This document shows, piece after piece, positions 18,531 to 64,000 of a stretch of DNA of 64,000 nucleotides. Position 1 is the stretch's first letter, and every line of letters starts with the position of its first letter. The position numbers and the translations under genes were made by a program. The stretch comes from Cytophagales bacterium (lineage in GTDB: Bacteria > Bacteroidota > Bacteroidia > Cytophagales > Cyclobacteriaceae), in assembly GCA_017303795.1 (NCBI GenBank), contig JAFLBR010000002.1, positions 310,001 to 374,000 on the forward strand, given 5' to 3'. The notes below the pieces were generated by a model that saw nothing but the letters and a program-made list of their open reading frames with translations, was not told the origin of the DNA and made no database searches.

Positions 18531-18566
18531 AATTATAATTCGAACTCGACCGGATTTTTTGAACCT

Positions 18567-21686: not shown

Positions 21687-21719
21687 AATTTTTGAATAGG
21701 AACTGATACGAACCAAAGT

Positions 21720-23093: not shown

Positions 23094-23098
23094 CAGAT

Positions 23099-23626: not shown

Positions 23627-23628
23627 TT

Positions 23629-24258: not shown

Positions 24259-24281
24259 TCTCTACTTAGATACCTATATCA

Positions 24282-25625: not shown

Positions 25626-25648
25626 TAGAAACGCTGAATAAATAATAT

Positions 25649-26728: not shown

Positions 26729-26741
26729 GATATTATAAGTC

Positions 26742-47014: not shown

Positions 47015-50000
47015 CTAATGCGCCACCAGCACCTTCTTCCTTACCACCCCTGTCTTCCCCGACCCAATCTGCACCACATAAATTCCCTGCGCCAGATTTT
47101 GTGTATTCACCGTTTTGGTTTGTTCACCTTTTTCAAAGTAAAGTTGTTGGGCTGCGCGACCAACCGGATCAATTAAGTTAACCATTAAGCGGTGCTCGGC
47201 TTTAAAGGGCAACTCAATTTCAAAACTTTCATTGGCCGGGTTAGGGTAGATGTTGATGTATTCGGAAAGGTCTTCGATGGCGGTAACCAAAGTAGGTTGG
47301 TCGGGTAAGAAAGCAGGATTCAGATCAAGATCAGCCTGAAATACTTCCCGCGTGTTTACATCCTGTACAAAAGCCACAATAGCTAACTCAGTAACATCTA
47401 TCTGTGGTTTTTCAATTCTTACGCTGTCAATCACTTCAATAAAATCATCTTCTTGCATACTTACTGGCAATACATGGCCCACCGCATTTGGCACTAGCTT
47501 GCGTAACACGAAGCGATTAGTACTAACCGTTTTCTCTACAACAGCAAGATGCAACACCGGACGTTTGGCCGCACCAATATCTGTTTTGGCGGTTACAACA
47601 GCACGAATTTTAAAGTAGCTATTATCGGTGGCATCTAATGATTCTACGCTGACATCAAAGTCACTGGTCTTTAAGCTTTGTTTGCTAAACCGGGTAGTAG
47701 CCCAGTTGGCAAGGTTAGGAATACCATTATTATTAGGGTCTAATGGGCCATCGCTTATTCCATCAATATAACTGCGTGGAATTTGCTGATCGGTCATCGG
47801 GATACCATAATAGGCGGCCCGTGCAAGAGGATCAACAGTATTCACTTCGTATTCCGAATCGGTATCTGGGAAGCCTACATGGTATTGGATTTTGGCAACT
47901 TCGGTATTGGGTATGGTAGTCGTAAATACTGTGTTGTTATCACCGTATCTTGTCGATCCATTATTCGTGAAGTTTTCAACAAGAGAGATTCGGTCTCTAG
48001 AGTTGATTGTCAAGTTATTAAAACCAAACCCTTCATAAACGGAATTACCCAAATTATCGGGTAGGTTATTTTCATCTGTGGTAAAGACAAATCGAAACCG
48101 AATATTACTTCTATCGCTGGCACTTAGATTACTAATATTATCTAAGGCCTTGACTGCAAATACAAGTGTGTCTGATTCCAAATTATCAACTAAAGAAGAT
48201 GCCCGGCCTGACCATCCTAATGCGCTGCTACCGATATTTCCAAATCCGAAGCCAGTAGTGTTGAACCAATTTAAGCCATTGTCAATTGCTCCAACGGCAA
48301 ACCAGGTTATACCCCCATCTTTTGAAAACTCAAGAACAACTCCATCTCGCTTAGATTCAGTATCCAAAACCATATTCATGGAAACGACAGGCCTGTTTAT
48401 TTCTTCAATATTCAAGCAAGGACTGTTAAGGAATGATTTTTCTAATGCAACATAATCTGACACTAAGCCTGTAGTCCATGCATTGCCTTCTAATTTCGAA
48501 AGCAGTGGCTTTGTGGGTGAACCGAATTCCCAAGTAGAGTTACCATTCACGTCCTCAAGTCGCCAATATCCCATACCGCCATCCAAACTTTCCATTCTGT
48601 AAGGATTACTTGAAGTTCTTATTAGTGTATCCAAAATTGTTACTGGTTTGGTTATTGAATTAGAACAACCCAAAGCTGTATAGGTAGTAAGTGTAACATT
48701 ATAAACACCGGATGAATTATCGATATCCGAACTTTCAAATTTATGTCTTGGTTCTTTATACGTGCCACTATTATTTGGCAGGGGAACAGTTGCTAATGCT
48801 AGACCTTTGGATATATAAGTACCAGGGGAGGAATCACCAAAATCCCATTCAAACTCATCAGAACCTACTCCCACTAATTGAGTTAAATTTCCCTCACAAA
48901 TAAGGGAATATGTAAAATCTGGAGTTGGATTTTGTCCAATTATTGGATTCTGTTGCTCGGAGCGGATGCAGCCAAAGCTATTAGTAACTTCTAACACAAC
49001 AGGATTTGAACTAAAGGCAGTGTAAGTATGCGTGATACTTGGATCATTATTTTTGGTAATGTTTGTTCCGTCCCCCATGGTCCACTTATAAATATTAAAG
49101 GCAGTTGAGCTGTTTAAAGTATCAATTGGTCCAGTAAATGATTCAGGCCTATTTATACAAAAATTTGGTAAACTAAACCGAGCATCTGGAGCTCGATTGA
49201 TTTCAATAGTGACTTCAGTTGGATCACTTTTACAGCCTTTGTATTGTTGCCGAACGAAGAAATTTTCAATTAAAGGTGTTGTTCCGTTTATAGAAGGAAC
49301 CGGTAAATCAAAATTTATTGAGTCGATGACTGCTGCTAATGGATTGGCTATTGGGTCAACACCATACCAAAATGGTTTATCGGAACTTCCGGTAGGTTGT
49401 GCTGGTATTTTGTAGGATGTTGGAGCTGTAACCTGACAAAATTCTACATTATTAGATATTGGTGAACTTGGCTTATTAATCCAGTTAAATTTTCTTTGGA
49501 CACTTGAAGGGCAGTTGTTTGCATCAGAATAGTTTAGTGTAATAGTTAATGGAATCTCTTCAAATCCACTAGTCAAGAGCGAATTTGCTCCAGGATTAAA
49601 AACTCTTGAATTTGCTCCAGTTAAAGCACCAGCATAATTTGGGGTAATTTCAAAATCATCAATTGCATACCCAACTATGCTTTGATCCAAAGTTATATTG
49701 GTTGCCGTTGCGCAAATGTTTGCTTGTTCTAAAATATTGACAATCTCGGGTGCTGGTCCATTTCGCACAAGTTCAAATGGTTGAAAAGAAATCAGAAATT
49801 CTTGATTGAGGTTATTTCGGCCATATACCAAAATAAAATAACTGTTTATCCGTCCGTTGCCGTTTAGATTTAATTCTCCTGAATAGCCAAATGTATTTCT
49901 TATTGCTGCGATATTTAAGTCATAGGTTATAGGTATAGTTACATTTATCGGGGCGAAGGGATTGGTTACGGGATGGTAAGCGATGTTTGGAAAACTTCCG

Positions 50001-52909
50001 CTAGAAGCCTGGGTAAGGGGATTGATTCCAACACAAAAACTATCATTTGGCCCTCCGTAAAAACATCCGTTATTATAAAAAATCAAACGAGTAAATTGGT
50101 ATTCATTTGGGGGATTAGTAGGTGTAAAAATAACTCTTGAATTGGCTGCATTTGGAGTAAGATCTTCTTCTAATGTTTCAGCCTGACAATATCTTAGTTC
50201 AAGATTGTTTACCACGGAATTAGTAACAACAAATTGAACAGTATCTGTTGCAAAACAACCAAAATTATTTGTGTACTTAAAAACAATATCATGAACCCCT
50301 AATGTCGCATCAAAAGGATTGAAATAGTAGAAACCATCATTTAATTTCTTAACCCCGGCTCCATTGAATTCAACTCCGGCACCACTTTGATTACCATATA
50401 ATCTATAGTTAATGTTTGACTCGGTATAATTAACCCTTACAGAACTTTCACCAGGAGCTGGGATAATAGTTGCGGTTGGGGATGGATTAACAACTACATC
50501 TACAAAGTCTGTGACGATATTTCCTGCGTTATCTTCTACCTCTAATGTGTATTGGGTATTTACTGTCGGTGCAACTAATGGACTTGAGCTTGAGGCAATG
50601 AGCGTTGGATCAGAAGGTGTTGCAGTCCATCTGAACTGATAAAAACCAGTTCCACCACTTGCGGAACCAATCAATGTTATCGCAGAGCCTAGGCATACCG
50701 TATTGGCGGGGCCATTCGTAGTGCTTACACTTACCGCCAAAGAAGCCACCGTAAGCGTAACCGGAGTATTCGTTAATGTTCTTGCAGTACAACCTGTGCG
50801 TGAAACATCAATTCTATAAGTGTAGCTACCAACAACATTTAAAGGGTCTGCTGGGCCATTAGCGGTATTTAAGGTGCGAGTTCCGTTATTACCAGCGACT
50901 ACATGCACTATAGCGGTAGGTGATGGACTGTAACCCACCGGTGCGCTGGTGAGGATTAATGAATAATCATAATTATTGCTCTGTGTATTTAGCACATCAA
51001 TGTTTACACTAGTATTCTGTGCAGGGCTAAGTGTAACCGGTGTAACTGTTAAACCAGTATTGATAGCCGGAAAAACATTGAGATTGCTGGCTGAGTTAGC
51101 ACTTACAAGGTCACTATCATTATTTCGTACAGTAATAGCACCTGTAGCAAAACCTGCAGGCAATGTAAACACAACCTGATTGGCAGTAAATGACACAATG
51201 TTAAGAGCTGGTATGGTTACACCATTTACTGTAACAGTGGGTTGTGTATTACCACTTGCTGGGCTGCCGGTTCCGGTAAAACGCGAACCATTAACGGTAA
51301 CATTATCAGCAATACAGGTTCCGGCTGCGGGCAGAAAACCACCAATTGATGGCCTATCCTCTGTTGTAAAGGTGATACTCTGAGCAGAGGAAGGATTCTC
51401 AACCGCATCCTCAATTGGATTCATTTCAACATAATAAACCTGGTTGTGCGCAAGCGTACTATTGGGGTTAATAGTTATTTCGGTGTTTGTACCATTAATG
51501 GTGGCGGTAAACGGAACGGTAGCACCACCGTTGTTAGTAAGTTTCAGTTCAACCAAACCACCTTGAATATCGGCTGGAGTAACAGCGGAATTATCGAGTT
51601 TGCGAATGGGTTCATTAAAAGTAAGTACGAGGTTACCAACAGCAGAAACATTGGTTGCTCCATTAGCCGGATTAAATGTAACCTGTGGTGGTAAGCTATC
51701 GCCAGTGGTAAATGTGATACTTGTGGTAGTAGTTGCATTATTACTTTCGTCCTCAACGGGATTCATCTCAACGTAATATTGGGTATTGCTAGTCAGGTTG
51801 CCTGAAGGGGTAATGGTAACAACCGTTCTGAGACCATTAATGTTTGCCGTAAAAGGAACAAGTGCTCCGGCATTATCAGTAAGTTTTAATTCTACAAGTG
51901 TATTAAGGTCGCCAGATGTAATTGCACCATCATCTATTTTGCGTACAGCTTCATTGAAAGTTATAATAATCTGGGTTGTTTCGAGCACCCCCGTAGCACC
52001 ATCGGTTATATTGAAAGATACTGTAGGGGCAATAGTATCGGGAGTGGTGAAGGTAATAGCGGATGATGTTGTTTCATTGCCATCAAGATCTTCAACCGGA
52101 TTAAGCTCTACATAATAGGTGGTGTTATTATTTAAATCGGCATTGGGATTAATAGTAATCTGATTTGTACCATTAAAGGTGGCTGTAAAGGGAACGGCAG
52201 CTCCGCCATTGTTGGTTACTTTAAGTTCTACAATTCCGCCCTCAATTGCAGCGGCATCAAGAGCAGTAGCATTGGCTTGAAACACGTTTTCATCAAAGGT
52301 GATAACAATGTTTGAGTTAACGGCCACATTGGAAGTCCCGTTAAGCGGGTTGAAGGTAAAGGTTGGTGTTATTACATCTTCAAAGCTATAAGTAGTACCG
52401 GTTATAGTTGCGGCATTAACAGTACCTGCGGCAGTAACGTTGGCTTGTGTTAATGATGGTGTAACGGTAGCGGTAGCAGAATTTACGCTGTTATCTGCAT
52501 CCACAACAAGAAAATATCTTCTTACCTCTGCTCCGGATGCGCCACTGAAAGTAGTTATACCACCCGTAAAGTTAATAGACGTTGGGCCGAATGCCGGTGT
52601 ACCAACTTCATTTGCAAGATCAGCAACATCAAAACTATTATTGTTGTCAGATCGAACCAGTCTGGGGTTAGTAAATCGGCCAACCGGATTCTGACCTAAA
52701 GGAATTGAAATGGCCGTAATGGAATTAGTACCACCTCCAGCTTTATCGAATTGAATACCAAAAATTGCAACATCGGTAGCTGTGTTGGCCAAAGGAGAAG
52801 ACGATACCCCTCCCGTAAGTTGGGTTATGGTTATGTTTTGTGAATAACTAGTGGCCCAGGCAACCACACCAAGTACAAAAACTAAAATTCGAGTTAGGTT
52901 GATACGCAT
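47015..52909 (-). CDS. Giant T9SS-secreted Ig-like repeat protein
   Basis: 1964 residues from ATG 52909; a TTG three codons earlier overlaps the previous stop (TTGA). Signal peptide MRINLTRILVFVLGVVAWATSYSQ (split at SYSQ). Domains in order: an N-terminal beta domain; three tandem Ig-like (SbsA type) repeats of about 110 residues (about 185-520), each with NPxNGxTNV, LTFNE and YYVEMNPxED; an IPT/TIG-like domain; further Ig-like domains; a PKD domain (EFEWDFGDSSPG); a MAM/lectin-like region (GGMGYWRLEDVNG); an Omp28-like thioredoxin-fold region (SLVENFTNNGSTRYGD, then YYGIPMTDQQIPRSYIDG); and the T9SS type A sorting tail (INIYPNPANESFEIELP to KVLVAH). It is last in a six-gene operon. Confidence 0.92.
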   Translation of the reverse strand: MRINLTRILVFVLGVVAWATSYSQNITITQLTGGVSSSPLANTATDVAIFGIQFDKAGGGTNSITAISIPLGQNPVGRFTNPRLVRSDNNNSFDVADLANEVGTPAFGPTSINFTGGITTFSGASGAEVRRYFLVVDADNSVNSATATVTPSLTQANVTAAGTVNAATITGTTYSFEDVITPTFTFNPLNGTSNVAVNSNIVITFDENVFQANATALDAAAIEGGIVELKVTNNGGAAVPFTATFNGTNQITINPNADLNNNTTYYVELNPVEDLDGNETTSSAITFTTPDTIAPTVSFNITDGATGVLETTQIIITFNEAVRKIDDGAITSGDLNTLVELKLTDNAGALVPFTANINGLRTVVTITPSGNLTSNTQYYVEMNPVEDESNNATTTTSITFTTGDSLPPQVTFNPANGATNVSAVGNLVLTFNEPIRKLDNSAVTPADIQGGLVELKLTNNGGATVPFTATINGTNTEITINPNSTLAHNQVYYVEMNPIEDAVENPSSAQSITFTTEDRPSIGGFLPAAGTCIADNVTVNGSRFTGTGSPASGNTQPTVTVNGVTIPALNIVSFTANQVVFTLPAGFATGAITVRNNDSDLVSANSASNLNVFPAINTGLTVTPVTLSPAQNTSVNIDVLNTQSNNYDYSLILTSAPVGYSPSPTAIVHVVAGNNGTRTLNTANGPADPLNVVGSYTYRIDVSRTGCTARTLTNTPVTLTVASLAVSVSTTNGPANTVCLGSAITLIGSASGGTGFYQFRWTATPSDPTLIASSSSPLVAPTVNTQYTLEVEDNAGNIVTDFVDVVVNPSPTATIIPAPGESSVRVNYTESNINYRLYGNQSGAGVEFNGAGVKKLNDGFYYFNPFDATLGVHDIVFKYTNNFGCFATDTVQFVVTNSVVNNLELRYCQAETLEEDLTPNAANSRVIFTPTNPPNEYQFTRLIFYNNGCFYGGPNDSFCVGINPLTQASSGSFPNIAYHPVTNPFAPINVTIPITYDLNIAAIRNTFGYSGELNLNGNGRINSYFILVYGRNNLNQEFLISFQPFELVRNGPAPEIVNILEQANICATATNITLDQSIVGYAIDDFEITPNYAGALTGANSRVFNPGANSLLTSGFEEIPLTITLNYSDANNCPSSVQRKFNWINKPSSPISNNVEFCQVTAPTSYKIPAQPTGSSDKPFWYGVDPIANPLAAVIDSINFDLPVPSINGTTPLIENFFVRQQYKGCKSDPTEVTIEINRAPDARFSLPNFCINRPESFTGPIDTLNSSTAFNIYKWTMGDGTNITKNNDPSITHTYTAFSSNPVVLEVTNSFGCIRSEQQNPIIGQNPTPDFTYSLICEGNLTQLVGVGSDEFEWDFGDSSPGTYISKGLALATVPLPNNSGTYKEPRHKFESSDIDNSSGVYNVTLTTYTALGCSNSITKPVTILDTLIRTSSNPYRMESLDGGMGYWRLEDVNGNSTWEFGSPTKPLLSKLEGNAWTTGLVSDYVALEKSFLNSPCLNIEEINRPVVSMNMVLDTESKRDGVVLEFSKDGGITWFAVGAIDNGLNWFNTTGFGFGNIGSSALGWSGRASSLVDNLESDTLVFAVKALDNISNLSASDRSNIRFRFVFTTDENNLPDNLGNSVYEGFGFNNLTINSRDRISLVENFTNNGSTRYGDNNTVFTTTIPNTEVAKIQYHVGFPDTDSEYEVNTVDPLARAAYYGIPMTDQQIPRSYIDGISDGPLDPNNNGIPNLANWATTRFSKQSLKTSDFDVSVESLDATDNSYFKIRAVVTAKTDIGAAKRPVLHLAVVEKTVSTNRFVLRKLVPNAVGHVLPVSMQEDDFIEVIDSVRIEKPQIDVTELAIVAFVQDVNTREVFQADLDLNPAFLPDQPTLVTAIEDLSEYINIYPNPANESFEIELPFKAEHRLMVNLIDPVGRAAQQLYFEKGEQTKTVNTQNLAQGIYVVQIGSGKTGVVRKKVLVAH

Positions 52910-52914
52910 ACTGC

Positions 52915-54261
52915 TCAATTGGTTAATTCACCATTTTTATCCATTCTCATTAAAAAAACTGAAGCGTACCCACTTAAGGTGTTGGTACCACATACTATAA
53001 TGTCGCCATTGCTGGCCTCGGTAACCCCTGCAGGGTCATCATCGCCAGTTCCACCCATAGTTTTAATCCAGACTATATCGCCAATAGCATTAACCTTGAT
53101 TATAAAAAGGTCTTTGCCACCATTACCTTTCTGGGGCGTGGTAGTCATAGTGCCTACCAAAACAAACCCGCCATCGCTGGTGGCGGTAATGGCTTTGCCT
53201 TCGTCAAGTATTTCGGAGTTATCCTTGTTTTGAGGAGTTGTATTGAAAGAACCAATTCCGTCAAAGTATCGATCGCTGCCGGGAATGATAGTACCATTGG
53301 AGGCCACTCTTAAAAAGAATATGTTTCCTTTCGAGCCATCGGTAATCTGGCTGTAGGTACCCACTACACCATAACCAAAGGCCGGTGATGAGGCCGGTTG
53401 AATATCGGCAGGTAAAAACAATTGCGTGCTGGTTTCGCCAGCCTGGCTAAAGTTTATCGGAACAGATTGTTCCTGTACATAAGGTATGGCCAGATAAGAT
53501 GAAGTAAAATCGCCTTGCACATCGGCAACGGCAGTAGCCCAGATAATGTTGCCGTTTGACGCATGGACGGATTTAGCATTAGAGTAGGTATTAGCGAGAA
53601 GCGGATAAGTTTTAAACCAGGAACTATCTTTACTTTGTGTTAGGCCATAAAGCATTTGCTCTTCTGGTGCATTTTGCTGGTTTACAATACCGCGTTTGAA
53701 TGTCCCCAAGACAATAGCTTCACCATTCTCAGTAAGATTTACCGGGCCGCCAAAGTAATCATCCTTAACAGGGTGATTTAGAGAAAGATCTTGCTTATCA
53801 GTAATGTATAATCTATTTCTTGTTTCTGCGAAATTAGCATTAAGTACAAGCACAGCCATCGAAGAAATACTAACATTAGCTGCCTGATCAACATTGGGGT
53901 TTATAATTATACTATCGCCCACAACAATGAAACCATTTAAAGCTCCCCCATTTACTAAAGGCTTAAATGATTTGGCTGTTATGTTATCATATTTATGGTA
54001 GTCGCCAATCCTGATTCCGATCTCATCCGTTTCAAATAGAATAGTTTGATTGATGGTACTGCTATTTGAAGGTGAAACCATGTTGGCCAATACTGCAAAA
54101 CCGCCCGGTATTTTTTCAATGGCGGCAGCTGTCATGGAGTAGGGGCCTTCGTAAAATTTCAGGAAAGTATTTCGCGGTGCCGGATCGGCATTATCCAGGT
54201 TCTTGCAAGTGGTGAGCAAGAACGCAGTTGCGAATAGTATAAAGGTGTTTATCTTTTTCAT
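52915..54261 (-). CDS. Lipoprotein, probably beta-propeller-like, unknown function
   Basis: 448 residues. MKKINTFILFATAFLLTTCK is a lipoprotein signal with lipobox LTTC. Repeated segments resemble the blades of the propellers in Bacteroidota surface proteins: IPGGFAVLANMVSPSN, ATSDGGFVLVGTMT, GDIVWIKTMGGTGDDDPAGV and ASNGDIIVCGTNT. It overlaps the beta-barrel gene by 4 bases (ATGA) and its stop overlaps the start region of the giant protein gene, so it may be a partner or anchor of that protein. Confidence 0.8.
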   Translation of the reverse strand: MKKINTFILFATAFLLTTCKNLDNADPAPRNTFLKFYEGPYSMTAAAIEKIPGGFAVLANMVSPSNSSTINQTILFETDEIGIRIGDYHKYDNITAKSFKPLVNGGALNGFIVVGDSIIINPNVDQAANVSISSMAVLVLNANFAETRNRLYITDKQDLSLNHPVKDDYFGGPVNLTENGEAIVLGTFKRGIVNQQNAPEEQMLYGLTQSKDSSWFKTYPLLANTYSNAKSVHASNGNIIWATAVADVQGDFTSSYLAIPYVQEQSVPINFSQAGETSTQLFLPADIQPASSPAFGYGVVGTYSQITDGSKGNIFFLRVASNGTIIPGSDRYFDGIGSFNTTPQNKDNSEILDEGKAITATSDGGFVLVGTMTTTPQKGNGGKDLFIIKVNAIGDIVWIKTMGGTGDDDPAGVTEASNGDIIVCGTNTLSGYASVFLMRMDKNGELTN

Positions 54262-55334
54262 GAACGGTTGCGTAGCTTCTTGGGATTAAACATGTTGATA
54301 ATGTATGACCCCTGTATGGCCAGAGATGAAAGTTTGAAGACAGGATCGGCATAATATTGCCCCCAGGTGGCTTGCTGATTTTCAAAAGCAGTTTCGGACG
54401 AACTGATGCGCGATAAGCCGTGTGAATACCGCACTTCCAAAACTACATACCCGCCTCCGGCTTTTGTTTTTATTCCGGTAGCAATCAAGGCACTAAGGTT
54501 TATTTTTTCGCGTGTTAGATCGAAAGAAGTTTCGGGCAAGGCGGCTGCTTCATCGCGAAAGCGCTCGGATCGTAACGTGCCATTACCCATCAGGTAGCCA
54601 ACAGAAAACCCACCGGCTACATAGGGATTTAGTTTTTCATTTTGCAGATAGTTGTACTGCAAACTTATAGGCATGGTAAGCCAGTTCTGCGATTCAACAC
54701 CCTGTAGGGTTTGAAACAATTCTACATTGTCTGCATTAAGGCCACGACTTACCTTTTGTTCAAGTTCAAATTTATGTTGCGTATAGAGTAGTTCACCGTG
54801 CAAGGTTAGTTTATAGTGTTTGATTTTTCCAAGCCGTAAAGGAACATCAGCCGATGCTCCAAACTGAATACCAATTGCATATTTGTATTTGCTGGATGCA
54901 TCGTTTACGGCTGAGATGGTATTTACTACATTTGGCTGGCTTGCATTTACGCCCAGTGCTGCACCAATGCGATAAATTTCTTTTGTGCGAAAAGTTCTAT
55001 ACAATGCTACAAACTCGGCCGGGTCAACTGCCTCATTAATTTTAAAGTAGTTATCCGTTTGCAAAAGCTTAAGCATGGTCTCGTCTGCTTTGCCGGGTTC
55101 TTCCAGGTAGATGTAGGTAAGTGTTAATAGTTTTAACAGACTTACGTGTTCGGCCTGACCGCACGCGGCCGAAGTACTGCTCAGTGCTTTGTTGATCAGG
55201 TCTTCCAGCTCATGTAATCGACCTTGATCGTAAACTGATTGAGCCAGTCGTACGGATTGAGCGCAGGAGGTGGTTTGAGCCGATGCACCCCAGGTAAGGG
55301 CAACGAAAATCAGAATCAGGTAAAATTTCTTCAT
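54258..55334 (-). CDS. Outer-membrane beta-barrel protein with N-terminal helical region
   Basis: 358 residues. Sec signal MKKFYLILIFVALTWGASAQ. Residues about 25-115 are helical and TPR-like (AQSVYDQGRLHELEDLINKA, then LLTLTYIYLEEPGKADETML). From about 120 the alternating pattern (YRIGAALGVNAS, AIGIQFGASADVPL, LTLHGELLYTQHKFEL, MPISLQYNYL, NPYVAGGFSVGYLMG) is that of a PorT-like eight-to-ten-strand barrel. It begins 3 bases after the STAND gene and overlaps the lipoprotein gene by 4 bases. Confidence 0.85.
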   Translation of the reverse strand: MKKFYLILIFVALTWGASAQTTSCAQSVRLAQSVYDQGRLHELEDLINKALSSTSAACGQAEHVSLLKLLTLTYIYLEEPGKADETMLKLLQTDNYFKINEAVDPAEFVALYRTFRTKEIYRIGAALGVNASQPNVVNTISAVNDASSKYKYAIGIQFGASADVPLRLGKIKHYKLTLHGELLYTQHKFELEQKVSRGLNADNVELFQTLQGVESQNWLTMPISLQYNYLQNEKLNPYVAGGFSVGYLMGNGTLRSERFRDEAAALPETSFDLTREKINLSALIATGIKTKAGGGYVVLEVRYSHGLSRISSSETAFENQQATWGQYYADPVFKLSSLAIQGSYIINMFNPKKLRNRS

Positions 55335-55337
55335 AGA

Positions 55338-58300
55338 TTATTTCCCCGCTTTTTTGGTGTTGGTTAAGCGTGCTTCTATACCTGGATAGTTTTCACAGGT
55401 TTTCTGCCACGGATAATCTTCCAGGTTACCCACGTAAATTTCCCACTCATCTTTACTGAGATTTCGTTTTACTCTTTCGCAAAGCAGTGATGACATCCCA
55501 TTAAAGTCGGTAGGGTAGGCGTGAATAGTTTGGTCAATTCCTTTTACGGTTTCGCGCACACTGTTAATACCGGCTAATAATTGCGAATCGTCTGGCGAGA
55601 AGGTTACACTCCAAACCCAATCGTGGTCGCTAACCGTAATGGGTTGTTCATTCAGTTTCCTGAAGTTCCAGAGTCTTACAGAATAGTCCTTACTGGCTGA
55701 TGCCATAAATGTTCCGGCATGGTTAAACTTAATGTCTTCAATCTGTGAAGAGTGACCGGGTAAATCGCGAATAACAATTCCATTACTCACAATTTTTAAC
55801 AATCCGTTTCGGCTACCCACTACAATCTGGCGGCCATCGGGTGCAAAACATACAGCCGACAAACCATTGGAGATATTAACTTTTGTAACGGCAAAGTTTT
55901 TATTGATATCCCAAACGTACAGGTTGCCTTTATCGCCTGCGCCTGCCAGCAGAGTTCCATTCTCATTCAGATCAAGCGATACAATTTTTTCATCTGACTT
56001 GATAACTTCTTTTGTTGTAGTTAAATCAGAAAACTTTATGCTATGACCAGAGTTATCGCGGGCATAGAAGCCTTTACCATCTGGTGTGAAGTGGATGTTC
56101 TCGATGTTATGCTTAAAGCCGGGTATCTTCTTAACCGGAGTGGACGGATTACGCAGATCATACAGTTCAGCATAATTCGATTCAGGATTTGATGGGAATA
56201 AGCCACCAGCAATCAGCGTATTTCCATCCGGGCTGGTATCTAACGTAAACACCATATAATCCAGTCGCTTGTCTACAATCATTTCTGCATTCCATTGTTT
56301 GTTGGCATAGTTCCAGCGAATAATGCGACCATCACTTCCGCCCGAGTAGATGTGATTGCCTTTGCCATGTGTTTCTAATGCGCGGGCCGCTCCATTGGTG
56401 TGGGCCTGCAAACTTTTGGTAAGGGGTTCTTCCCAATTTTTTAAGGCTGTATATAAACCACCGTACACATCGCTGTTATATTCATAACCACCATATTTTT
56501 TATTGAACATGTAGGCTTGCTGCGCAACTAAGCCTTCCAATGCAAGGTCGTTGCCCAGTTCTTTGGATTTAATGGCCATTGCTTTTGCAGCTGCGAGGTA
56601 TTTTTCACGCTCTGCGCGTTCCGCGTTGCGGTCTGCACGTTCAGCATTGGCTACTGCTTTTTTCTCATTATCAATAGCGAGTTTTTCCTTTTCTTCAGCT
56701 CTACTCTTTTGTTTCAAAGCTTCTGCTTCTTGCTCTCTTGCTCTTTGTTCATTTTCTTCCGCTTTCTTTCGTTGCTCTGCTTCAGCAATTTGAGCCGCTT
56801 CCGCCTCTAGCTTAGCTTTCTCTGCAGCTTCTTGTGCAATTCTTGCCTTATCTCTTTCTTCTTCAGCAATCTTTTGCTGCTTTAGTGCTTCTACAGCATT
56901 GTTTTCAGCGGTAATTTTCTGTCTGTTCGCCTCCGCCTGCTGCACAAACGCATACACAAACGCAATCAGGGCTATACCAGCCAGTGTACCAAACACAATT
57001 GCGGTAATGCGGGCGCGTTGCAACTTGCGCTTAGCTTCCAGTTCTTTTATCCGTTGCTCGGTATCAAATTCTTTCTTGGAGTATTCCAGAAAGATCATGG
57101 TACGCTCAAAGGCCGGATGGTAGCGCTGGCCCCAGACCAAAGTAGGTTTGTGTTTGGCTTGCCAGTTAAGCGCTAATTGTAAATCGGGTGGGCGCCACAA
57201 GCCGGCTTTGCCTACCTGATATTGCCCCGCAGCTTCGGCCAAACGCAAATACATTTGCACGGCTTCACTCTCGTCATCCACCCAATTTTTCAAGCGCACC
57301 CAAATGCGCATCAAACTTTCGTGCGAGATGTCGATCATCGACTTTGAGCCTAACTCTATACCATAAGCCGGTGTTAACAACGAGCGACCGGGCTCGCGGA
57401 ATTTTTCGATTACGGCCACTACATCTGCTTCCGATACATCGGCAATAGAAGCAATTTCATTTAAGCGCGTGGGTCTTCGAATACCAAAGTTCTCGCCTCG
57501 CTTTTCGGTAATGGCTTTGAATAGAATTTCGCAGATGCGTTGTTGCTCTTCATCCAATTCGTCATACGCTTCGTTGGCATGCATCGAAAGCGCTTCTGAC
57601 ATGGTACCGATGGCCTCATAATGTTTCAGGTCAACCGGCTCGCCATCATAATCGCGATACTTTGCCCAATAACTCCATGTGCGCATTAACGCGTGTTGCA
57701 GAATAGGGAGCTGATCGGGGTTGTCGCCCAAATCGTTTAGCAATTGTTGTGTTAACCGCGGAGTAATTTTAGCATTACCCACAGCCACCGGGCCTTCTAC
57801 GGCTCTGCGTTTCTGATCGCGCGTCATTTGCGGAATCAGGTAGTGGCTATCGTTAATCTTGCGGGTTAGTTCAGGAAACTGCGCACACTCACCAATAAAA
57901 TCCGAGCGCATGGTAATGGCTACATAGATGGGTGCATCTTCATAGTTAACCGCTTCCATTAACAGGTTAATGAAGGCAAGCGATTCGTTTACGGAATTGG
58001 GATCGGTGCTGTCTTTAAACCGGAAAAGTTCTTCAAACTGATCGACCAGAATTAAATAGTTTATGTCTTCTTTTCTACGCGATTGCTGAATGGCTTCCAC
58101 CAAACCCAACGAGCTACTTCTTTGTAAAGTAGAAACAATAGTGCGTTTTATTTTTTTATCCTCAACATCGGCAGCGTTATAATCTTTAACAGTTTTAAGA
58201 AGCGATTCTGCTAAGTTATCGATGGGGCCGGCACCGGGGCGGGTAACTACTACTTCCCAATTGGGGCTGGCATCAGTTAAAAATCCGCCATAGAGAATAG

Positions 58301-58514
58301 GAAGTACACCACAATAAATGAAAGATGACTTACCACTTCCGGAAGGACCAATAACGCCCACAAACCGGCTCTTGGAAAGTTTGAGCAGCACTTCATCGCT
58401 CTGGCCTTCGCGACCAAAGAACAAATGGCTCTCTTCAATTTTGAATGGCCGCAGACCGGGGAAAGGGTTTACCGTTCCTACCAGTGTGCCATGTTCGTCT
58501 ACCATCTGGCTCAT
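55338..58514 (-). CDS. nSTAND-type NTPase with membrane helix, coiled coil and WD40 propeller
   Basis: 1058 residues. The N-terminal NPFPGLRPFKIEESHLFFGR and Walker A GPSGSGKSS (56-64), with Walker B YLILVDQFEELF (153-164), identify an nSTAND1-type P-loop NTPase (about 15-440). A membrane helix follows at about 503-524 (ITAIVFGTLAGIALIAFVYA). A long Ala/Glu/Lys coiled coil occupies about 525-650. Seven WD40 repeats fill about 700-1045, for example GGSDGRIIRWN, GAGDKGNLYVWD and SASKDYSVRLWN. The topology puts the NTPase and, probably, the propeller on opposite sides of the membrane. STAND proteins act as signal-triggered oligomerising switches. It lies 3 bases after the TIR-like gene. Confidence 0.93.
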   Translation of the reverse strand: MSQMVDEHGTLVGTVNPFPGLRPFKIEESHLFFGREGQSDEVLLKLSKSRFVGVIGPSGSGKSSFIYCGVLPILYGGFLTDASPNWEVVVTRPGAGPIDNLAESLLKTVKDYNAADVEDKKIKRTIVSTLQRSSSLGLVEAIQQSRRKEDINYLILVDQFEELFRFKDSTDPNSVNESLAFINLLMEAVNYEDAPIYVAITMRSDFIGECAQFPELTRKINDSHYLIPQMTRDQKRRAVEGPVAVGNAKITPRLTQQLLNDLGDNPDQLPILQHALMRTWSYWAKYRDYDGEPVDLKHYEAIGTMSEALSMHANEAYDELDEEQQRICEILFKAITEKRGENFGIRRPTRLNEIASIADVSEADVVAVIEKFREPGRSLLTPAYGIELGSKSMIDISHESLMRIWVRLKNWVDDESEAVQMYLRLAEAAGQYQVGKAGLWRPPDLQLALNWQAKHKPTLVWGQRYHPAFERTMIFLEYSKKEFDTEQRIKELEAKRKLQRARITAIVFGTLAGIALIAFVYAFVQQAEANRQKITAENNAVEALKQQKIAEEERDKARIAQEAAEKAKLEAEAAQIAEAEQRKKAEENEQRAREQEAEALKQKSRAEEKEKLAIDNEKKAVANAERADRNAERAEREKYLAAAKAMAIKSKELGNDLALEGLVAQQAYMFNKKYGGYEYNSDVYGGLYTALKNWEEPLTKSLQAHTNGAARALETHGKGNHIYSGGSDGRIIRWNYANKQWNAEMIVDKRLDYMVFTLDTSPDGNTLIAGGLFPSNPESNYAELYDLRNPSTPVKKIPGFKHNIENIHFTPDGKGFYARDNSGHSIKFSDLTTTKEVIKSDEKIVSLDLNENGTLLAGAGDKGNLYVWDINKNFAVTKVNISNGLSAVCFAPDGRQIVVGSRNGLLKIVSNGIVIRDLPGHSSQIEDIKFNHAGTFMASASKDYSVRLWNFRKLNEQPITVSDHDWVWSVTFSPDDSQLLAGINSVRETVKGIDQTIHAYPTDFNGMSSLLCERVKRNLSKDEWEIYVGNLEDYPWQKTCENYPGIEARLTNTKKAGK

Positions 58515-58517
58515 AAC

Positions 58518-59954
58518 TTATGAGTTTATGTCTTGTAAAAATGTCTTGAGATTTTCGAGCGAGCGATTGGTATCGCCTGCTATCAACGTAAGGTTCTGAT
58601 TTTTGAAACCATCTAAGGTGTTATTACTGCCAGCTACAATCGCTTTGCCTTGAATGGGTTTTTTACGACCGAAGCCCGGAGCTTTCAATAAGTCGAGCAC
58701 TTTCATGCGCACCCATTGATCGTTTACTTTTCCTTTGAAGATAATAGCGCCATCGAAGTTGCGCAGGTTTTCAATGTGTTGTTTACGCACTTCCAGCAAC
58801 TCACCTTCAAAGGCAGGTATTAAAACTTTAAAGCCAGATTTTTCTATCGCTTCGCGGAAAGGGCGAACTTCAGTATCGTCAATCTTGTCATGTACGAGAT
58901 AAATAGATTTGCCACCCGATTCATCTATGCTTTTGCGCTCCTGCGATTCGATCAGTTCTTCGCGCATAATGTTTTTGAAATCTTCCAATGGGTTTTGCAA
59001 AATTTCAGCTCCTTCCTGCGCTTCGGTATCGCGTTTAAGCGTATCGATAAATGCACGTTGTTTATCGCTGGCGTTTTTTAGGTTTTGCGAAATCCAGATC
59101 AGACGCGAGAACTCGTGTTGCTTTTGTTTTTTCTCTACGGCTACTTCAGCAGAAAGCTGATTTTGAAGATCAACAATAGAACGATCGCTGCCTTCGGGTA
59201 TTTCGCCATAGGCACTACCCACCAGGTGCACTGATAGTGAGCATTCTTCTAAATCTTTGCGCACAATGCGGGTTACTTCACTTACGTGCGATGGGAGCGT
59301 GTTTTTTGGTAACACAATATACCCATGACGTTGCAACTCGCGCTTAATGATGTTTCGCTGCACCGATAAGTCGTGGCCGGTTTCAGCGAGGTAAATAGAC
59401 TTACGTTTGTAAATATTCTTTACGGATGATTTTGCATCACCTTCATTCAGAATCATTAATGCTTCGTGAATGTCGTAAGCCAAATCAACCAACTTCATCC
59501 AATATTGTTTCTCGGCTTCCTGACTAAAAAAATCGGAGTACTCTTTTTGTAAACCTGTTTCGGTATCGAGTTGATACATTTCATAACCAAGCAAATCGCG
59601 CAAGCGGGGTGGTTGTTCTTGTATAGAAAGCGGAGCCTTCATTACTTTAAACACGCGATTGATTTTAGATTCGGAAGAGTTTTTATAAAACGTTTCTAAA
59701 TTATCAAGGCAACGACCGGAGAGTGCAAACTCTTTAGTAACAATGGGTACCAGAATAGCCGCATTATTTAATGCCGGAGCTGTGGCAGAATCAAATTCTG
59801 ATTTAAGAATAATGTTAGGCTTGGTGCCTTGCACTTGCGTGAGCATCAGTTCCAGAAATTTTCTGAACTGTGTAACCCAACCCGTTTCCGTTTTCTGGGC
59901 GGTTTCATTGTCCTTCTCGGCAAATGTTATCAGTACGTCAATTTCAAAAGCCAT
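58518..59954 (-). CDS. Protein with three TIR-like modules
   Basis: 478 residues, soluble. Residues 1-130 (FEIDVLITFAEKDNETAQ, ALNNAAILVPIVTKEFALSG, RCLDNLETFY) follow the TIR fold. Residues about 185-290 (KSIYLAETGHDLSVQRNIIK, GYIVLPKN, CSLSVHLVGSAYG) and about 348-475 (KSIYLVHDKIDDTEVRPFRE, GFKVLIPAFEGE, FDGAIIFKG) are two further TIR-like, DUF4062-type modules. In the first module the position of the NADase Glu (usually WCxxEL) reads RCLDNL, so catalytic activity is doubtful; E87 is two residues further on. It is encoded directly upstream of the STAND NTPase and probably works with it. Confidence 0.82.
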   Translation of the reverse strand: MAFEIDVLITFAEKDNETAQKTETGWVTQFRKFLELMLTQVQGTKPNIILKSEFDSATAPALNNAAILVPIVTKEFALSGRCLDNLETFYKNSSESKINRVFKVMKAPLSIQEQPPRLRDLLGYEMYQLDTETGLQKEYSDFFSQEAEKQYWMKLVDLAYDIHEALMILNEGDAKSSVKNIYKRKSIYLAETGHDLSVQRNIIKRELQRHGYIVLPKNTLPSHVSEVTRIVRKDLEECSLSVHLVGSAYGEIPEGSDRSIVDLQNQLSAEVAVEKKQKQHEFSRLIWISQNLKNASDKQRAFIDTLKRDTEAQEGAEILQNPLEDFKNIMREELIESQERKSIDESGGKSIYLVHDKIDDTEVRPFREAIEKSGFKVLIPAFEGELLEVRKQHIENLRNFDGAIIFKGKVNDQWVRMKVLDLLKAPGFGRKKPIQGKAIVAGSNNTLDGFKNQNLTLIAGDTNRSLENLKTFLQDINS

Positions 59955-59966
59955 AGTTTAAAAAAT

Positions 59967-62900
59967 TTAGTTTGCAGGTTGTTTTTCGGGTTGTTCGGTA
60001 ATGTTGTGTATAAGGCCCTGGGCCAGTTCGTGGTGGTTGGCCAAAACGAAATAGAAATCAATAAGACTTATTTTAAAAATAACACTTCGCTCTTGTGCAT
60101 GCACTTGGCTGATAGTAGGGGTAGGGCCTTCCTGAAACAAATCGCCATATACAGCACCCGGTTTCAAATCCATAATAGTTTGACCTTCATTCAGCAATTG
60201 TGCTTTACCATGTGCCATTATTAAAATAGGCATCTCTTCTGTTTGCGGAATGTTAAGCTTCTCGTTTGCCTTAAGAGTAATCGGTTGAATCTTATCCGAC
60301 AAATCACTTAATACTTTTCCCTGAATGTGATAGAATGCCGGAATAGATTTAATGAGCATGATCATTTCAATGTAAAGGAAGAACCCATCATCTAATCCAT
60401 CCAGCAGTTGATTACTTTCTATTGAAGAATCAAGAAATTTTTTGTCTTTGTAAGGAAGTCTTTCAGAAATAGTCTGATAAGCAGCGTGATCTTTATTATA
60501 AATTACCCAGGCCGTTGTTTCTTGTAATAGTTTATCGCTGTTAAACATCTGGCTGATCAAGCCGCGGCTTACGCGGAAGTTGGGAATGTAAGCGCAGGCA
60601 TGCACCGCACATACTTTGGTCCACCGGTTGTTGTAATTAAAATCGCGATTAAGAATGTAGTTGATAACCTGAATAGGGTTGTAGCTTTCGCGTGGGAAGA
60701 AGGTTTGCAGGTTCTCTAATTTTTTAGGTGTTGAGGAATCATCTAAAAGTGGAATCAACTTGGGTTTTAAATCCTGATCGACAAACAAATCCAGCAACTC
60801 AAGTGCATACTGCACACTATCCGGTGTACCTAACTCAATGTTTTCTTTTACTAATTGTACTGATTCCGGATCGTACACCAACGAAAGCAGCAAACTGAGA
60901 TGATCGTAGTTATCGCGAACTTCTTCGCGCAAGGCTTCGCGAAGATATTTGTAAATAGGTTCGTCTGGTAATTCATGCAAAGCTGCCAGGTTCCATAGCG
61001 TTTTGCTCATCTCGGCATCCAGCAAATCTTTTACGGCCAATGCTTCGCGGCCGCTTGCGCGATAGTTGATAAAGCGAAGCGAATACAAAATTTGTTTTAC
61101 GATGCGCTTATCGGGATAGTCTATTTTTTTCCAAAGCAATTGTAAACTTTCCTGGCCGGGAATATGCCCGATAATCTGAATAAGTTTCAGCATCACCAGA
61201 TCGTTCTGCCCCGATTTATGAAAGGCAGTTTCCAAAACCGGAAGCACTGCTGCGCCAGCTTCTTTCAATGCCGATGCAGCCTGATGCGCATAACGAGGCG
61301 AGGCCAGGAGTTCGATTAGTACATTCCAGGTTTCGGGGCGTTTTACTTTGCGGGCAGTAAGCAAGGCTTCGGTTCTTACTTTGGGGTCAGCATCGCGCAT
61401 TAATTCCAACAGAATGAAAATGGTTTTCTGATTGGTAAGTTTGCGCATTAACTTAGCAGCCAGTAACCGGTCGGTTTGTTTAACCGATTTACTCAGCTTC
61501 ATTAGTTTTTCTACCGGTATCGAAAGCAGGTCGCTGTCTTCGGCCATGCCTGCCGCTTGCGAGGCTAAGCCTTTTATTTCATTATCGGCAGCTAAGATGC
61601 CAAGCTCTTCAATTTTCTTACGCGCAAACAGCGATACTTTTTTAGAGGGACTATCAGCCAGTTGCATTAAAGATGTTTCGAACAAGGCTGGCTCTAACTT
61701 CTCCATCAACTTAAGTCCGTAAATAATTTTCTCTTCGGCTGTACTACGAACTTCTTTTTCAAGCACACTATCTAAAGTGTATTCTCTAACTAAGTTTTTC
61801 TTTACAGTCGATTTATTTTTTACCAGCGAACTCTGTAACGTCTCGCGATAGCCCTTGTGCATGCGGTTGGAAGTCCAATACCACAAGCCCAGCACGGGAA
61901 GCGTAAAGGCAGTAACCGATAACACGGTGAAAATATCGAACGAATTGATTAACACGATGGCACCCCCGGCAATAGCACTGGCCAGTGCAGTTACAGTACC
62001 TTCAATTTTAGTTTGCGCATCAATGCTGATGGAGCGATCGATGGGAACATAGAAAAATTTGAAGGTTGGGTTATCCAAGGCCTCGCGTAGCGAGTTGATA
62101 AACAACTTACTCATGGCCACGGCAATGAAGAAGAACGTTATGGTACTCTTTTCTCCTGAGGTAAGGTCGTAACCAAAGTAAGAACCCAGTGCAAAGGCAG
62201 CTCCGGTAAAAATGAGGAGGATAACCGGATTAATCAGCAATGAAATACGTAAGCCATAATCCTGGTTAATGCGGTTGGTAACAAACGTAGTAAACAAGAA
62301 ACTGAAGACCACCACCGTTGCTTCAAACAGACTTAGGAAGGTGGCCAGTTGGTCATTATCTAGTTTGCCGTTTTCAGTGTATTGTATAGTGATGGCATTA
62401 AAGAATGCATAGTCCACAAATCGCAACGCAATAAGCGATACAATGATAAAGAGCGAAAGCGTGATGATATACTTGTTGGTAAGAAACTGCCCGATAGAAA
62501 GTTTCTTGATTTCGGATTCGCTTTTGATAGCTCGTTTACCGGCTGCCAGATACTTGCGCGACAGTACAATAAACAATACTAGATAGCCGGTTATACTCAC
62601 CAGTCCAATAGTATAAAGCGATTCAGCAGCAACTCCATAACTTAATAAAATGGGGATAGAGAAGAAGGCAATGATGGCGGCTATATCGGTACCAACATCT
62701 ACGCTGCCAATTAAACGCTTGGAATCGCGCACGTTAAACATGCGGTTAAACGAACCCCAGAAAACCAGTTGGGTTACAAACGTGAAGGGGAGAATGAGTG
62801 TAAATCCAAAGTAAAAAAGTTGGTTGGTATCTTGTACATAAGGCTCACCAAATTCAATGAAGGCGGTTAACAGAATTACCAACACCAGATTAAAAACAGC

Positions 62901-63152
62901 AAGGGCCGTGAATGGTATCCGGCCCTGAAGAAAGTTGTAGAGTAAAGTTATTAAAACACCAATTCCACCCGAGATGGCAAGCGCAGCCGGCAATTGGTTT
63001 CGTTCATCAAAATGTGCCAGAAAAAGAGTTTGCGATGCAACGGCCACGGTTGCCAGAAATAGCCCCATGAGAAAACTCATGACTAAGAGTAGCGATACCT
63101 GACCGGTTTCGTCAGGTTCAACATCAAGTGCTTTCCATAGCCGTTGAAGCAT
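59967..63152 (-). CDS. NTT/MFS-like membrane protein fused to HEAT repeats and a cNMP-binding domain
   Basis: 1061 residues from ATG 63152; a GTG ten codons earlier (63182) is the only other start. Residues about 15-440 form about 12 helices resembling the nucleotide-transporter (ADP/ATP translocase) branch of MFS-like proteins, for example SVDVGTDIAAIIAFFSIPIL and FFYVPIDRSISIDAQTKIEG. Residues about 450-900 are HEAT-like helical repeats (FILLELMRDADPKVRTEALL, then KSGQNDLVMLKLIQIIGHIP). A cyclic-nucleotide-binding beta-roll closes the chain (about 950-1050; PILIMAHGKAQLLNEGQTIM, then VYGDLFQEG). First gene of the six-gene operon, 12 bases before the TIR-like gene. Confidence 0.85.
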   Translation of the reverse strand: MLQRLWKALDVEPDETGQVSLLLVMSFLMGLFLATVAVASQTLFLAHFDERNQLPAALAISGGIGVLITLLYNFLQGRIPFTALAVFNLVLVILLTAFIEFGEPYVQDTNQLFYFGFTLILPFTFVTQLVFWGSFNRMFNVRDSKRLIGSVDVGTDIAAIIAFFSIPILLSYGVAAESLYTIGLVSITGYLVLFIVLSRKYLAAGKRAIKSESEIKKLSIGQFLTNKYIITLSLFIIVSLIALRFVDYAFFNAITIQYTENGKLDNDQLATFLSLFEATVVVFSFLFTTFVTNRINQDYGLRISLLINPVILLIFTGAAFALGSYFGYDLTSGEKSTITFFFIAVAMSKLFINSLREALDNPTFKFFYVPIDRSISIDAQTKIEGTVTALASAIAGGAIVLINSFDIFTVLSVTAFTLPVLGLWYWTSNRMHKGYRETLQSSLVKNKSTVKKNLVREYTLDSVLEKEVRSTAEEKIIYGLKLMEKLEPALFETSLMQLADSPSKKVSLFARKKIEELGILAADNEIKGLASQAAGMAEDSDLLSIPVEKLMKLSKSVKQTDRLLAAKLMRKLTNQKTIFILLELMRDADPKVRTEALLTARKVKRPETWNVLIELLASPRYAHQAASALKEAGAAVLPVLETAFHKSGQNDLVMLKLIQIIGHIPGQESLQLLWKKIDYPDKRIVKQILYSLRFINYRASGREALAVKDLLDAEMSKTLWNLAALHELPDEPIYKYLREALREEVRDNYDHLSLLLSLVYDPESVQLVKENIELGTPDSVQYALELLDLFVDQDLKPKLIPLLDDSSTPKKLENLQTFFPRESYNPIQVINYILNRDFNYNNRWTKVCAVHACAYIPNFRVSRGLISQMFNSDKLLQETTAWVIYNKDHAAYQTISERLPYKDKKFLDSSIESNQLLDGLDDGFFLYIEMIMLIKSIPAFYHIQGKVLSDLSDKIQPITLKANEKLNIPQTEEMPILIMAHGKAQLLNEGQTIMDLKPGAVYGDLFQEGPTPTISQVHAQERSVIFKISLIDFYFVLANHHELAQGLIHNITEQPEKQPAN

Positions 63153-63353
63153 AGGTTGTGGTTTAACCTTTAAATTTTGCACAATTCATCGAAAAATCCA
63201 ATTCAATTAACAGTTGATTTAAATTTTGATTAGCAACTGATTAATAAGAAGTTGATGATTGCGTAACACTAAAATCAATTCATCCTGGCGACAATTCCAT
63301 AAAACATGGGTGTGGATGGGCAAATGCCTTATAAGGTAAGTTGGAATCGGGAA

Positions 63354-64000
63354 TTATTTTCTGAAAAGGAGGGAGCTATCACCATAACTCAGAAACCGGT
63401 AGTCGGTAGCTAACGCAGCGTCATAAATCTCTCGCCAACCCGAGCCTACAAAGGAAGCCACCAGCAAAATGAGGGTTGAACCCGGCTGGTGAAAGTTGGT
63501 AATCAGTGCATCTACTGTGCGAAATTTATAGCCCGGCATAATGTAAATGGCAGTTTCGCCCACCAGTGTGTTTAGCTGGTTAAGATTCATGTAATCAAGT
63601 ACTTGCTGCAAGGCATCCGGCACGCTAATGTGTTGGGGCAAGGTGTAAGCTTCTTGCTGACTGATTTGAAAAGTACTTTGGTTGTTGCCCATCAGTTTAA
63701 CCCCAAACCAGTATATACTTTCAAGTGTGCGCACCGAAGTTGTACCCACGGCCACGGTAAACCTGCTACTTAATAAGGTCTGGATATTTTCGCGTGTAAC
63801 AACAATCTGCTCCTGATGCATGATGTGATTTTGCGCCTGCTCGGCCTTTACCGGCTGAAAGGTTCCGGCACTTACGTGGAGGGTGAGGTACTCGGTGCAA
63901 TGGCCGGCCGCTTCAAGTTGTTGAAGCACCGAATCAGTAAAATGCAGTCCGGCCGTTGGGGCGGCTACAGCACCTTCATGTTTGGAGTAAACCGTTTGGT
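63354..64000 (-). CDS. queA: tRNA preQ1(34) S-adenosylmethionine ribosyltransferase-isomerase, C-terminal part
   Basis: The frame runs past the right edge, so the 5' end is outside the window; an internal GTG at 63929 is not the start. The last ~215 residues are present and include HEGAVAAPTAGLHFT, LHVSAGTFQPVKAE, VAVGTTSVRTLES, TNFHQPGSTLILLVASFVG and YRFLSYGDSSLLF, all QueA hallmarks. The enzyme transfers and isomerises the ribosyl part of SAM onto preQ1 at the tRNA wobble base in queuosine synthesis. It is separated by 171 bases from the six-gene operon on the same strand. Confidence 0.95.
   Translation of the reverse strand, partial: QTVYSKHEGAVAAPTAGLHFTDSVLQQLEAAGHCTEYLTLHVSAGTFQPVKAEQAQNHIMHQEQIVVTRENIQTLLSSRFTVAVGTTSVRTLESIYWFGVKLMGNNQSTFQISQQEAYTLPQHISVPDALQQVLDYMNLNQLNTLVGETAIYIMPGYKFRTVDALITNFHQPGSTLILLVASFVGSGWREIYDAALATDYRFLSYGDSSLLFRK

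Follow-up and report, generated by a model that had tools for sequence, protein, structure and literature searches.

A Cytophagales operon with a constant STAND and TIR-like core and an exchangeable envelope cassette

As judged by comparing related loci, a six-gene operon from a Cytophagales bacterium is made of a constant core and an exchangeable envelope cassette. The core encodes an NTT-HEAT-cNMP protein, a triple TIR-like protein and the ATPase half of an nSTAND-WD40 protein, and the cassette covers the propeller half of the STAND protein, an outer-membrane barrel, a lipoprotein and much of a giant surface protein. This division is new in this analysis: the original prediction had grouped the six genes, but it missed that the exterior is exchanged around a constant interior and that the STAND propeller is predicted to be periplasmic. 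The main role known for STAND ATPases and TIR domains is that of immune switches in the cytoplasm. In this operon, which is conserved across an order, they are linked to a type IX surface protein by a putative periplasmic propeller.

Gene content and predicted topology

The window (the whole 64,000-nucleotide stretch of DNA that was analysed) contains these features:

63354..63998, reverse strand: QueA flank, C-terminal part in the window (Pfam; conserved neighbour)
59967..63182, reverse strand: NTT, open reading frame for a polytopic transporter-like protein with HEAT and cNMP-like parts
about 61884-63092, reverse strand: polytopic nucleotide-transporter-like domain of NTT (Kyte-Doolittle scan)
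61266-61511, reverse strand: HEAT repeats of NTT (Pfam HEAT_2)
60036-60227, reverse strand: degenerate cNMP-like domain of NTT (weak Pfam match below cut-off)
58518..59954, reverse strand: TIR, open reading frame for a triple TIR-like cytoplasmic protein
59460-59954, reverse strand: TIR domain D1, TIR_2-like (weak TIR_2 match)
59169-59396, reverse strand: TIR domain D2, DUF4062 (extent of the Pfam match, above cut-off)
58521-58922, reverse strand: TIR domain D3, DUF4062-related (hhalign to D2)
55338..58514, reverse strand: STAND, open reading frame with nSTAND1 ATPase, membrane helix, coiled coil and WD40
57216-58466, reverse strand: nSTAND1 ATPase (Pfam, E = 4e-96)
56943-56999, reverse strand: membrane helix of STAND (hydrophobic scan)
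about 56565-56942, reverse strand: alanine-heptad coiled coil of STAND (alanines every seven residues)
about 55560-56447, reverse strand: WD40 propeller of STAND (Pfam WD40)
54258..55334, reverse strand: OMB, open reading frame with signal peptide, N-terminal domain and outer-membrane beta-barrel
residues 1-121 of OMB, reverse strand: N-terminal domain
54405-54971, reverse strand: beta-barrel of OMB (Pfam OMP_b-brl_2)
52915..54261, reverse strand: LIPO, open reading frame for a putative lipoprotein with propeller-like repeats
47015..52918, reverse strand: GIANT, open reading frame for a 1967-aa T9SS-exported surface protein (Big_5, PKD)
47027-47251, reverse strand: sorting domain of GIANT (Por_Secre_tail, PF18962)
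47384..56925, reverse strand: exchangeable envelope cassette relative to locus L096 (blastn against L096 and L305)
45929..46750, reverse strand: TerC flank (Pfam; conserved neighbour)

The six reverse-strand reading frames lie where the original prediction placed them, with the tight spacing that it gave: the gaps from NTT to OMB are 12, 3 and 3 bases, and OMB and LIPO overlap by 4 bases. LIPO and GIANT overlap by 4 bases if GIANT starts at TTG, or are separated by ~5 bases if it starts at an ATG three codons later. Promoter and terminator scans found no more sites than in shuffled sequence. The gene packing and the domain calls agree with a single operon-like unit that has parts for every compartment, as had been proposed, and the Pfam matches (HEAT_2, a weak cNMP match, DUF4062, a weak TIR_2 match, nSTAND1, WD40, OMP_b-brl_2, Big_5, PKD_4 and Por_Secre_tail) correspond to the domain content that had been read from the sequence alone.

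The reading of the first gene as NTT-HEAT-cNMP stood in part. The HEAT repeats were found, and the membrane part, which has 14 hydrophobic segments within its first 433 residues in a Kyte-Doolittle scan, is judged to be NTT-type from its orthologs and from a paralog in the same genome; nucleotide exchange is a putative activity. The window copy gave no Pfam match to TLC/NTT (PF03219). The NTT proteins of same-type operons in G065 C12, G544, G559, G572 and G581 score above the cut-off for this family, as does the paralog (G000 C2). The cNMP-like domain is the other weak point: it falls below the Pfam cut-off, unlike the paralog's, and we take it to be without a clear phosphate-binding arginine. 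A PDB sequence search with the membrane part found no significant relative.

The second protein is triple TIR-like, as the original prediction had it. Among 34 homologs, TIR_2 was found in 21 and DUF4062 in 31, and D3 is related to D2 (hhalign E = 1.8e-5, probability 78%). hhalign detected no relation of D1 to D2 or D3, and a PDB sequence search with the TIR profile gave no significant relative (best E = 0.32). D1 aligns with the active-type TIR domains of TIR-STAND pairs, which have the motif SEWC..E. At the position of the catalytic glutamate, 8/81 operon copies have Glu, versus 7/8 pair-type proteins; the window copy has Asn. The acidic position of D2, which may correspond to E97 of KpSwz, is Asp in 57/81 operon copies and Glu in 17/81, and D3 has Trp in 81/81 and Lys in 80/81. 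These positions were matched by sequence alignment rather than by structure, and the alignment is uncertain for distant copies. The expected catalytic Glu thus appears to be mostly lost from the first domain, and we read the operon's TIR-like protein as mostly non-catalytic, with D2 as a possible exception. In L178, L184 and L094, the gene immediately before NTT encodes another TIR-like protein.

The third protein has the features of a STAND NTPase: besides the nSTAND1 match, the Walker A pattern is present in 48/51 homologs and Walker B in 51/51. All 51 have a single predicted helix after the ATPase (hydrophobic scan), and in all 51 the positive charge is greater on the ATPase side of the helix. 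The ATPase is therefore predicted to be cytoplasmic and the coiled coil and propeller periplasmic, which agrees with the earlier description of a membrane-spanning switch. In cytoplasmic STAND immune sensors the sensor repeats are inside the cell, whereas here a predicted helix precedes the propeller. Across 44 STAND proteins, conservation per 50 residues falls from 0.80-0.95 to 0.42-0.66 at the helix.

LIPO has no Pfam match; 46/46 homologs have a cysteine within residues 11-45, and there is a sub-threshold match to a delta-60 repeat. GIANT contains Big_5, PKD_4 and Por_Secre_tail domains. The sorting domain terminates all 30 complete homologs of GIANT, which range from 1667 to 5613 aa, and the 11 that were tested all exceed the Pfam cut-off. 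PF18962 together with SprA in the same genome marks GIANT as a putative T9SS substrate. As a discriminating trait, association with T9SS is uninformative, because the marker SprA is in 147/148 genomes of the family. The giants also share a conserved region of ~500 aa before the sorting domain (47250-48800 in the window) with many invariant W, G and P residues. This region matched no Pfam family above cut-off; by eye, its end resembles what we take to be candidate relatives, Omp28 or thioredoxin-like proteins.

Distribution and variants of the operon

We examined 148 genomes of the family, one per species, many of which are metagenome assemblies. Matches were found in 83 genomes for TIR, 86 for STAND (E up to 1e-120) and 84 for NTT (E up to 1e-20). 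All three core genes are in 76/148 genomes and none are in 58/148, so the system is dispensable. STAND and NTT occur together in 81 genomes, one without the other in 5 and 3, and neither in 59 (Fisher p = 2e-31). With fragments counted, 66/104 TIR hits sit between an adjacent NTT gene upstream and an adjacent STAND gene downstream. Five genomes have STAND and NTT with no TIR hit.

We fetched 20-kb regions for 60 hits (the neighbour counts leave out the window). NTT precedes TIR in 54 regions, STAND follows TIR in 52, and a barrel gene is next in 49; the barrel is followed by a lipoprotein-sized gene in 47, and 42 continue with another gene on the same strand. Of those 42 genes, 31 code for 1667 aa or more, 9 are truncated at a contig end, and 2 differ (L060 and L081); the slot in L060 is shifted because the barrel frame is split. 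The giant is absent from its usual slot in three loci: L075, where a long reading frame lies on the opposite strand, L081, and L093, which has none. Of the 11 loci without a barrel, five have TIR alone, five are truncated where the contig ends, and in one the STAND frame is split. Median gaps across the family's operons are 25, 2, 6 and 1 bases.

At the level of the order, the TIR profile matched 53/291 genomes, 39 of which belong to 11 other families. In 20 regions from those 39 genomes, STAND and a barrel follow TIR in 18 and NTT lies at most two genes before TIR in 17. A sample of the phylum gave TIR matches in just 8/395 genomes, four of them in the window's family and four weak and partial, so the system looks limited to the order. 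Among the named holders are Chryseolinea, Pseudochryseolinea, Chryseotalea and Fulvivirga. The order consists mostly of free-living bacteria. The original prediction had noted that scattered homologs, or adjacency in a single strain, would point to a chance cluster; instead, gene order is kept across the family and the order, and these counts rule out a chance cluster.

Some loci depart from the usual layout. The window's own genome carries, elsewhere, a second, paralogous set of NTT, STAND, barrel, lipoprotein and a long reading frame, without TIR. All six further TIR-less STAND loci that we examined have a barrel, a lipoprotein and then a reading frame cut by the end of the fetched stretch. 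Conversely, L051, L052, L065, L091 and L092 have TIR without adjacent core or envelope genes. Each of these genomes has STAND elsewhere, so TIR might serve a second set in trans. These solitary TIR genes remain near queA, and near terC as well in L051 and L052; the other operon genes were apparently lost. Genes for HAMP-SpoIIE phosphatases lie between NTT and TIR in three loci (L255:14367-16385, L256:3036-4988 and L263:14428-16461), and in L185 a SpoIIE protein with a regulator propeller precedes TIR. Phosphatases of this type beside TIR point to signal transduction.

QueA is upstream of NTT in six other loci (L057-L060, L063 and L064). TerC homologs, 77-96% identical, are downstream in 7/7 relatives at a consistent distance, which fits 13.0-14.8 kb from the TIR start in all seven, with contig identity confirmed through shared sequence for L096 only and with contig numbers that do not match the record numbers for L097 and L103. 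With QueA upstream and TerC downstream of several loci in the family, the locus seems to be largely inherited in place. PADLOC matched no family to the six proteins, only weak Walker-type ATPase similarity, and a check of the same type on ten other proteins of the window found no defence genes, with one protein showing ABC-ATPase-type similarity only. The flanks are housekeeping genes and defence genes are absent from the neighbourhood, so neither PADLOC nor the neighbours support a mobile defence island.

Exchange of the envelope genes

Compared with its nearest relative, L096, the window's operon is 89% (NTT), 91% (TIR) and 98% (nSTAND) identical in the core, versus 53% in the propeller half, 47% in the barrel and 39% in the lipoprotein; the giant's sorting tail is 88% identical. 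In blastn comparisons with L096 and L305, similarity runs from 64000 to 56926 at 79.8%, from QueA through about STAND codon 529. Inside the cassette there are only short pieces at 66-70%. Similarity resumes from 47383 to 47016 (77%; the last 122 codons of the giant) and continues through TerC. Relative to L096, the cassette spans STAND codon ~529, past the membrane helix, to just before the sorting domain of the giant.

Other pairs show similar ends, although blastn ends are approximate breakpoints only. L122 and L124 share a single block (10,561 bases, 92.2%) that stops at STAND codon 535; no further match lies beyond it at E 1e-10, and identity drops there from about 95% to 60-67%. L111 matches L112 over about 15 kb at 91.6% and L114 over 14.5 kb at 89.0%, and both matches stop at barrel codon 119. 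The coiled coil has diverged as well between L111 and L112, with the propeller kept. L112 and L114 are similar as far as the start of the giant. Further ends in the barrel gene are at codons of about 124, 164 and 188 (the window against L098, L099 and L172, respectively) and, numbered from the first start codon, about 136 (L120/L121).

Rapid evolution of surface proteins does not suffice as the whole explanation for these pairs. At fourfold sites, L122 and L124 differ by 0.20-0.33 in NTT, TIR and nSTAND and by 0.61-0.86 beyond; L111 and L112 differ by 0.17-0.18 and then by 0.57-0.69 in OMB and LIPO. In these pairs (and L111/L114), synonymous sites jump as well and DNA similarity ends abruptly, and the window and L096 are alike again in the sorting domain and TerC. 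Between more distant loci, whose synonymous sites are saturated, fast evolution may still account for much of the divergence.

Counts over close pairs caution against reading too much into exchange. Of the 10 pairs whose cores are 0.95 or more identical, 7 have similar envelope genes and 3 have a barrel plus lipoprotein identity below 0.6; among 5 pairs at 0.90-0.95, that identity is below 0.5 in 2. These pairs share genomes and are not independent. The barrel plus lipoprotein are more similar than the core in only 5/1540 pairs. L096 and L097 are such cases when compared to UBA5585, which is another genus (L139, the same DNA as G065): the barrel is 77-79% identical, the lipoprotein 72-74% and the propeller half 80%, versus just 66-67% for the core. 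The first 479 residues of the L096 giant are 58.6% identical to the UBA5585 giant, and the remainder best matches the window (39%), with a sorting domain that is 88% identical to the window's versus 42% to that of UBA5585. The UBA5585-like envelope of L096 and L097 thus marks a cassette that was transferred, reaching from the STAND helix to a point inside the giant, in a direction assigned by parsimony.

Gene trees for 56 loci give the same division. NTT, TIR and nSTAND agree with 0 to 2 strong conflicts (NTT versus TIR, 0/40), and OMB and LIPO conflict at 3/33. In contrast, NTT has 25/40 strong conflicts with OMB and 25/40 with LIPO; the propeller is intermediate. Core and envelope trees have 22/53 splits in common and each data set rejects the other's tree (with an IQ-TREE warning that the replicates were too few). 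The nearest neighbour is the same by core and by envelope for 31/56 loci.

With core distance held constant, the envelope parts co-vary across the 56 loci: 0.78 for OMB and LIPO, 0.53 for propeller and OMB, and 0.40 for propeller and LIPO (0/500 permutations each). In the 29 loci with complete giants, LIPO and the giant's C-terminal region give 0.44, OMB and that region 0.28, and OMB and LIPO 0.41 (0/500 each); propeller and barrel give 0.19 (5/500). In these 29 loci, propeller and LIPO (201/500), propeller and giant (103/500), and LIPO and sorting domain (97/500) were not significant. Chromosomal linkage alone would give the same chain of co-variation.

Possible functions and related systems

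From the gene order and its conservation, the predicted topology, the blocks of co-inheritance, the cassette exchange and the loss of the D1 Glu, all read from sequence, we propose a recognition relay across the envelope with exchangeable specificity, a reading that we consider about as likely to be right as wrong. The giant would be exported by T9SS and would form the exterior together with the lipoprotein propeller and the outer-membrane barrel. The state of this exterior would reach the periplasmic propeller and coiled coil of the membrane-spanning nSTAND ATPase; the cytoplasmic ATPase would then switch, probably by oligomerising, and its output would be carried by the triple TIR-like protein and by the membrane protein NTT-HEAT. 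The physical contacts, the direction of the signal, ATP-driven switching, the ligand and the output are parts that we infer. With constant cytoplasmic parts and an exchangeable exterior, discrimination among variable surface partners or ligands seems most likely; the partners might be neighbouring cells, self-type or a variable surface. The recognition reading derives from the exchange at compartment borders. A tentative version resembles allorecognition: the inner-membrane STAND would read a cassette-borne self-type by its periplasmic propeller and signal via a silenced TIR scaffold. Of the three roles suggested originally, cell-contact or envelope signalling fits best.

Control might instead run from inside to outside, with the cytoplasmic ATPase and TIR-like protein regulating display or release of a giant adhesin via the periplasmic propeller. 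Exterior diversity would then come not from recognition but from the pressure that phage, predators or substrates put on a surface antigen. The giant Ig/PKD-type proteins with a sorting domain in all 30 complete copies, the membrane-spanning ATPase, and the HAMP-SpoIIE phosphatases of some variants, which could be an input module for cytoplasmic control, speak for this. However, the barrel, lipoprotein and periplasmic propeller are exchanged along with the exterior, which goes beyond what a plain antigen needs, and a neighbouring envelope gene of L111 and L112 (TPR-PD40-OmpA, 766 aa) lies inside their conserved 91.6% block. We give this perhaps a one-in-a-few chance. LapD, an inner-membrane regulator, controls the giant adhesin LapA in the LapD-LapG-LapA system, and the operon is like it in joining such a regulator to such an adhesin, but the six proteins have no GGDEF, EAL or LapG-type Pfam domain.

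Immunity or abortive infection, in which a sensor on the outside would register phage or attack, leading STAND to oligomerise and TIR/DUF4062 to deplete NAD+ as in Swarozyc or TIR-STAND defence, seems unlikely. It draws on PMC13174449, which reports DUF4062 to be a family of TIR-like NADases, some of them antiphage, on the DUF4062-STAND-WD40 order, which is as in TEP1, on exterior diversity, and on TIR-STAND pairs without envelope genes, which retain the SEWC..E-type motif. The residues argue against it (D1 Glu in few operon copies versus most pair-type ones, D2 mostly Asp, and D3 almost always Lys), as do the lack of a PADLOC family and the QueA and TerC flanks without defence genes, so the defence role suggested originally is poorly supported. 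That the locus is a loose neighbourhood of unrelated envelope and signalling genes is very improbable: loss of members is evident from the solitary TIR genes and from the paralogous operon without TIR, but the NTT-TIR-STAND order at 66/104 TIR hits, the co-occurrence of STAND and NTT, and the 18/20 order-level loci with STAND and OMB beside TIR contradict it.

The recognition relay can be set beside several known systems. The DUF4062-STAND-WD40 proteins (TEP1 and NWD1/2) and Swarozyc have the same order of effector, STAND ATPase and WD40 sensor, according to the available part of PMC13174449, and DUF4062 is found in the operon's TIR proteins as in Swarozyc-type NADases (31/34 homologs; the window copy is above cut-off). 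In contrast, the operon splits this order over two genes, has a triple TIR-like protein, and places a helix between ATPase and propeller. It also appears to have mostly lost the catalytic Glu, has envelope partners, and lies outside a defence island. The TIR-STAND pairs and STAND conflict systems of bacteria, such as those in PMC7159879, share the nSTAND ATPase, the TIR partner and the propeller, but the operon's propeller is predicted to be periplasmic and a T9SS protein, an outer-membrane barrel and a lipoprotein are included; neither "outer membrane" nor "T9SS" occurs in the available text of PMC7159879. The polymorphic kin receptor TraA of Myxococcus likewise has a variable recognition part, a constant C-terminal sorting tag and signs of recombination among alleles (PMC3820747, available part). 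We claim no homology to TraA; the operon shows this pattern between species only, and its variation extends over four genes with a cytoplasmic STAND attached. NTT-HEAT-cNBD fusion proteins (PMC5381601) have the same three-part architecture as the first gene, with function given there as not known, and the available text does not tie them to STAND, TIR or T9SS genes. We found no published description of the six-gene layout, which the original prediction had called unfamiliar, in a search of literature listings that covered a minority of the subscription journals.

If the allorecognition-like version holds, an immune-type switch of STAND and TIR would have been turned to the outside, for recognition of cells or surfaces, and recombination at compartment borders would join its constant and variable regions. 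The operon, if the recognition relay is right, would give a first handle on the role of NTT-HEAT-cNBD proteins and show how information from outside the cell can reach a STAND switch in Bacteroidota. It would also be a candidate system by which gliding bacteria that live on surfaces recognise what they meet there.

Elsewhere in the window, 9771-28625 holds respiratory genes (for cytochromes, COX1, an NrfD-type complex and a nos_propeller protein that would fit nitrous oxide reductase), and 33967-37584 encodes a 1205-aa sensor histidine kinase that adjoins an ABC ATPase gene.
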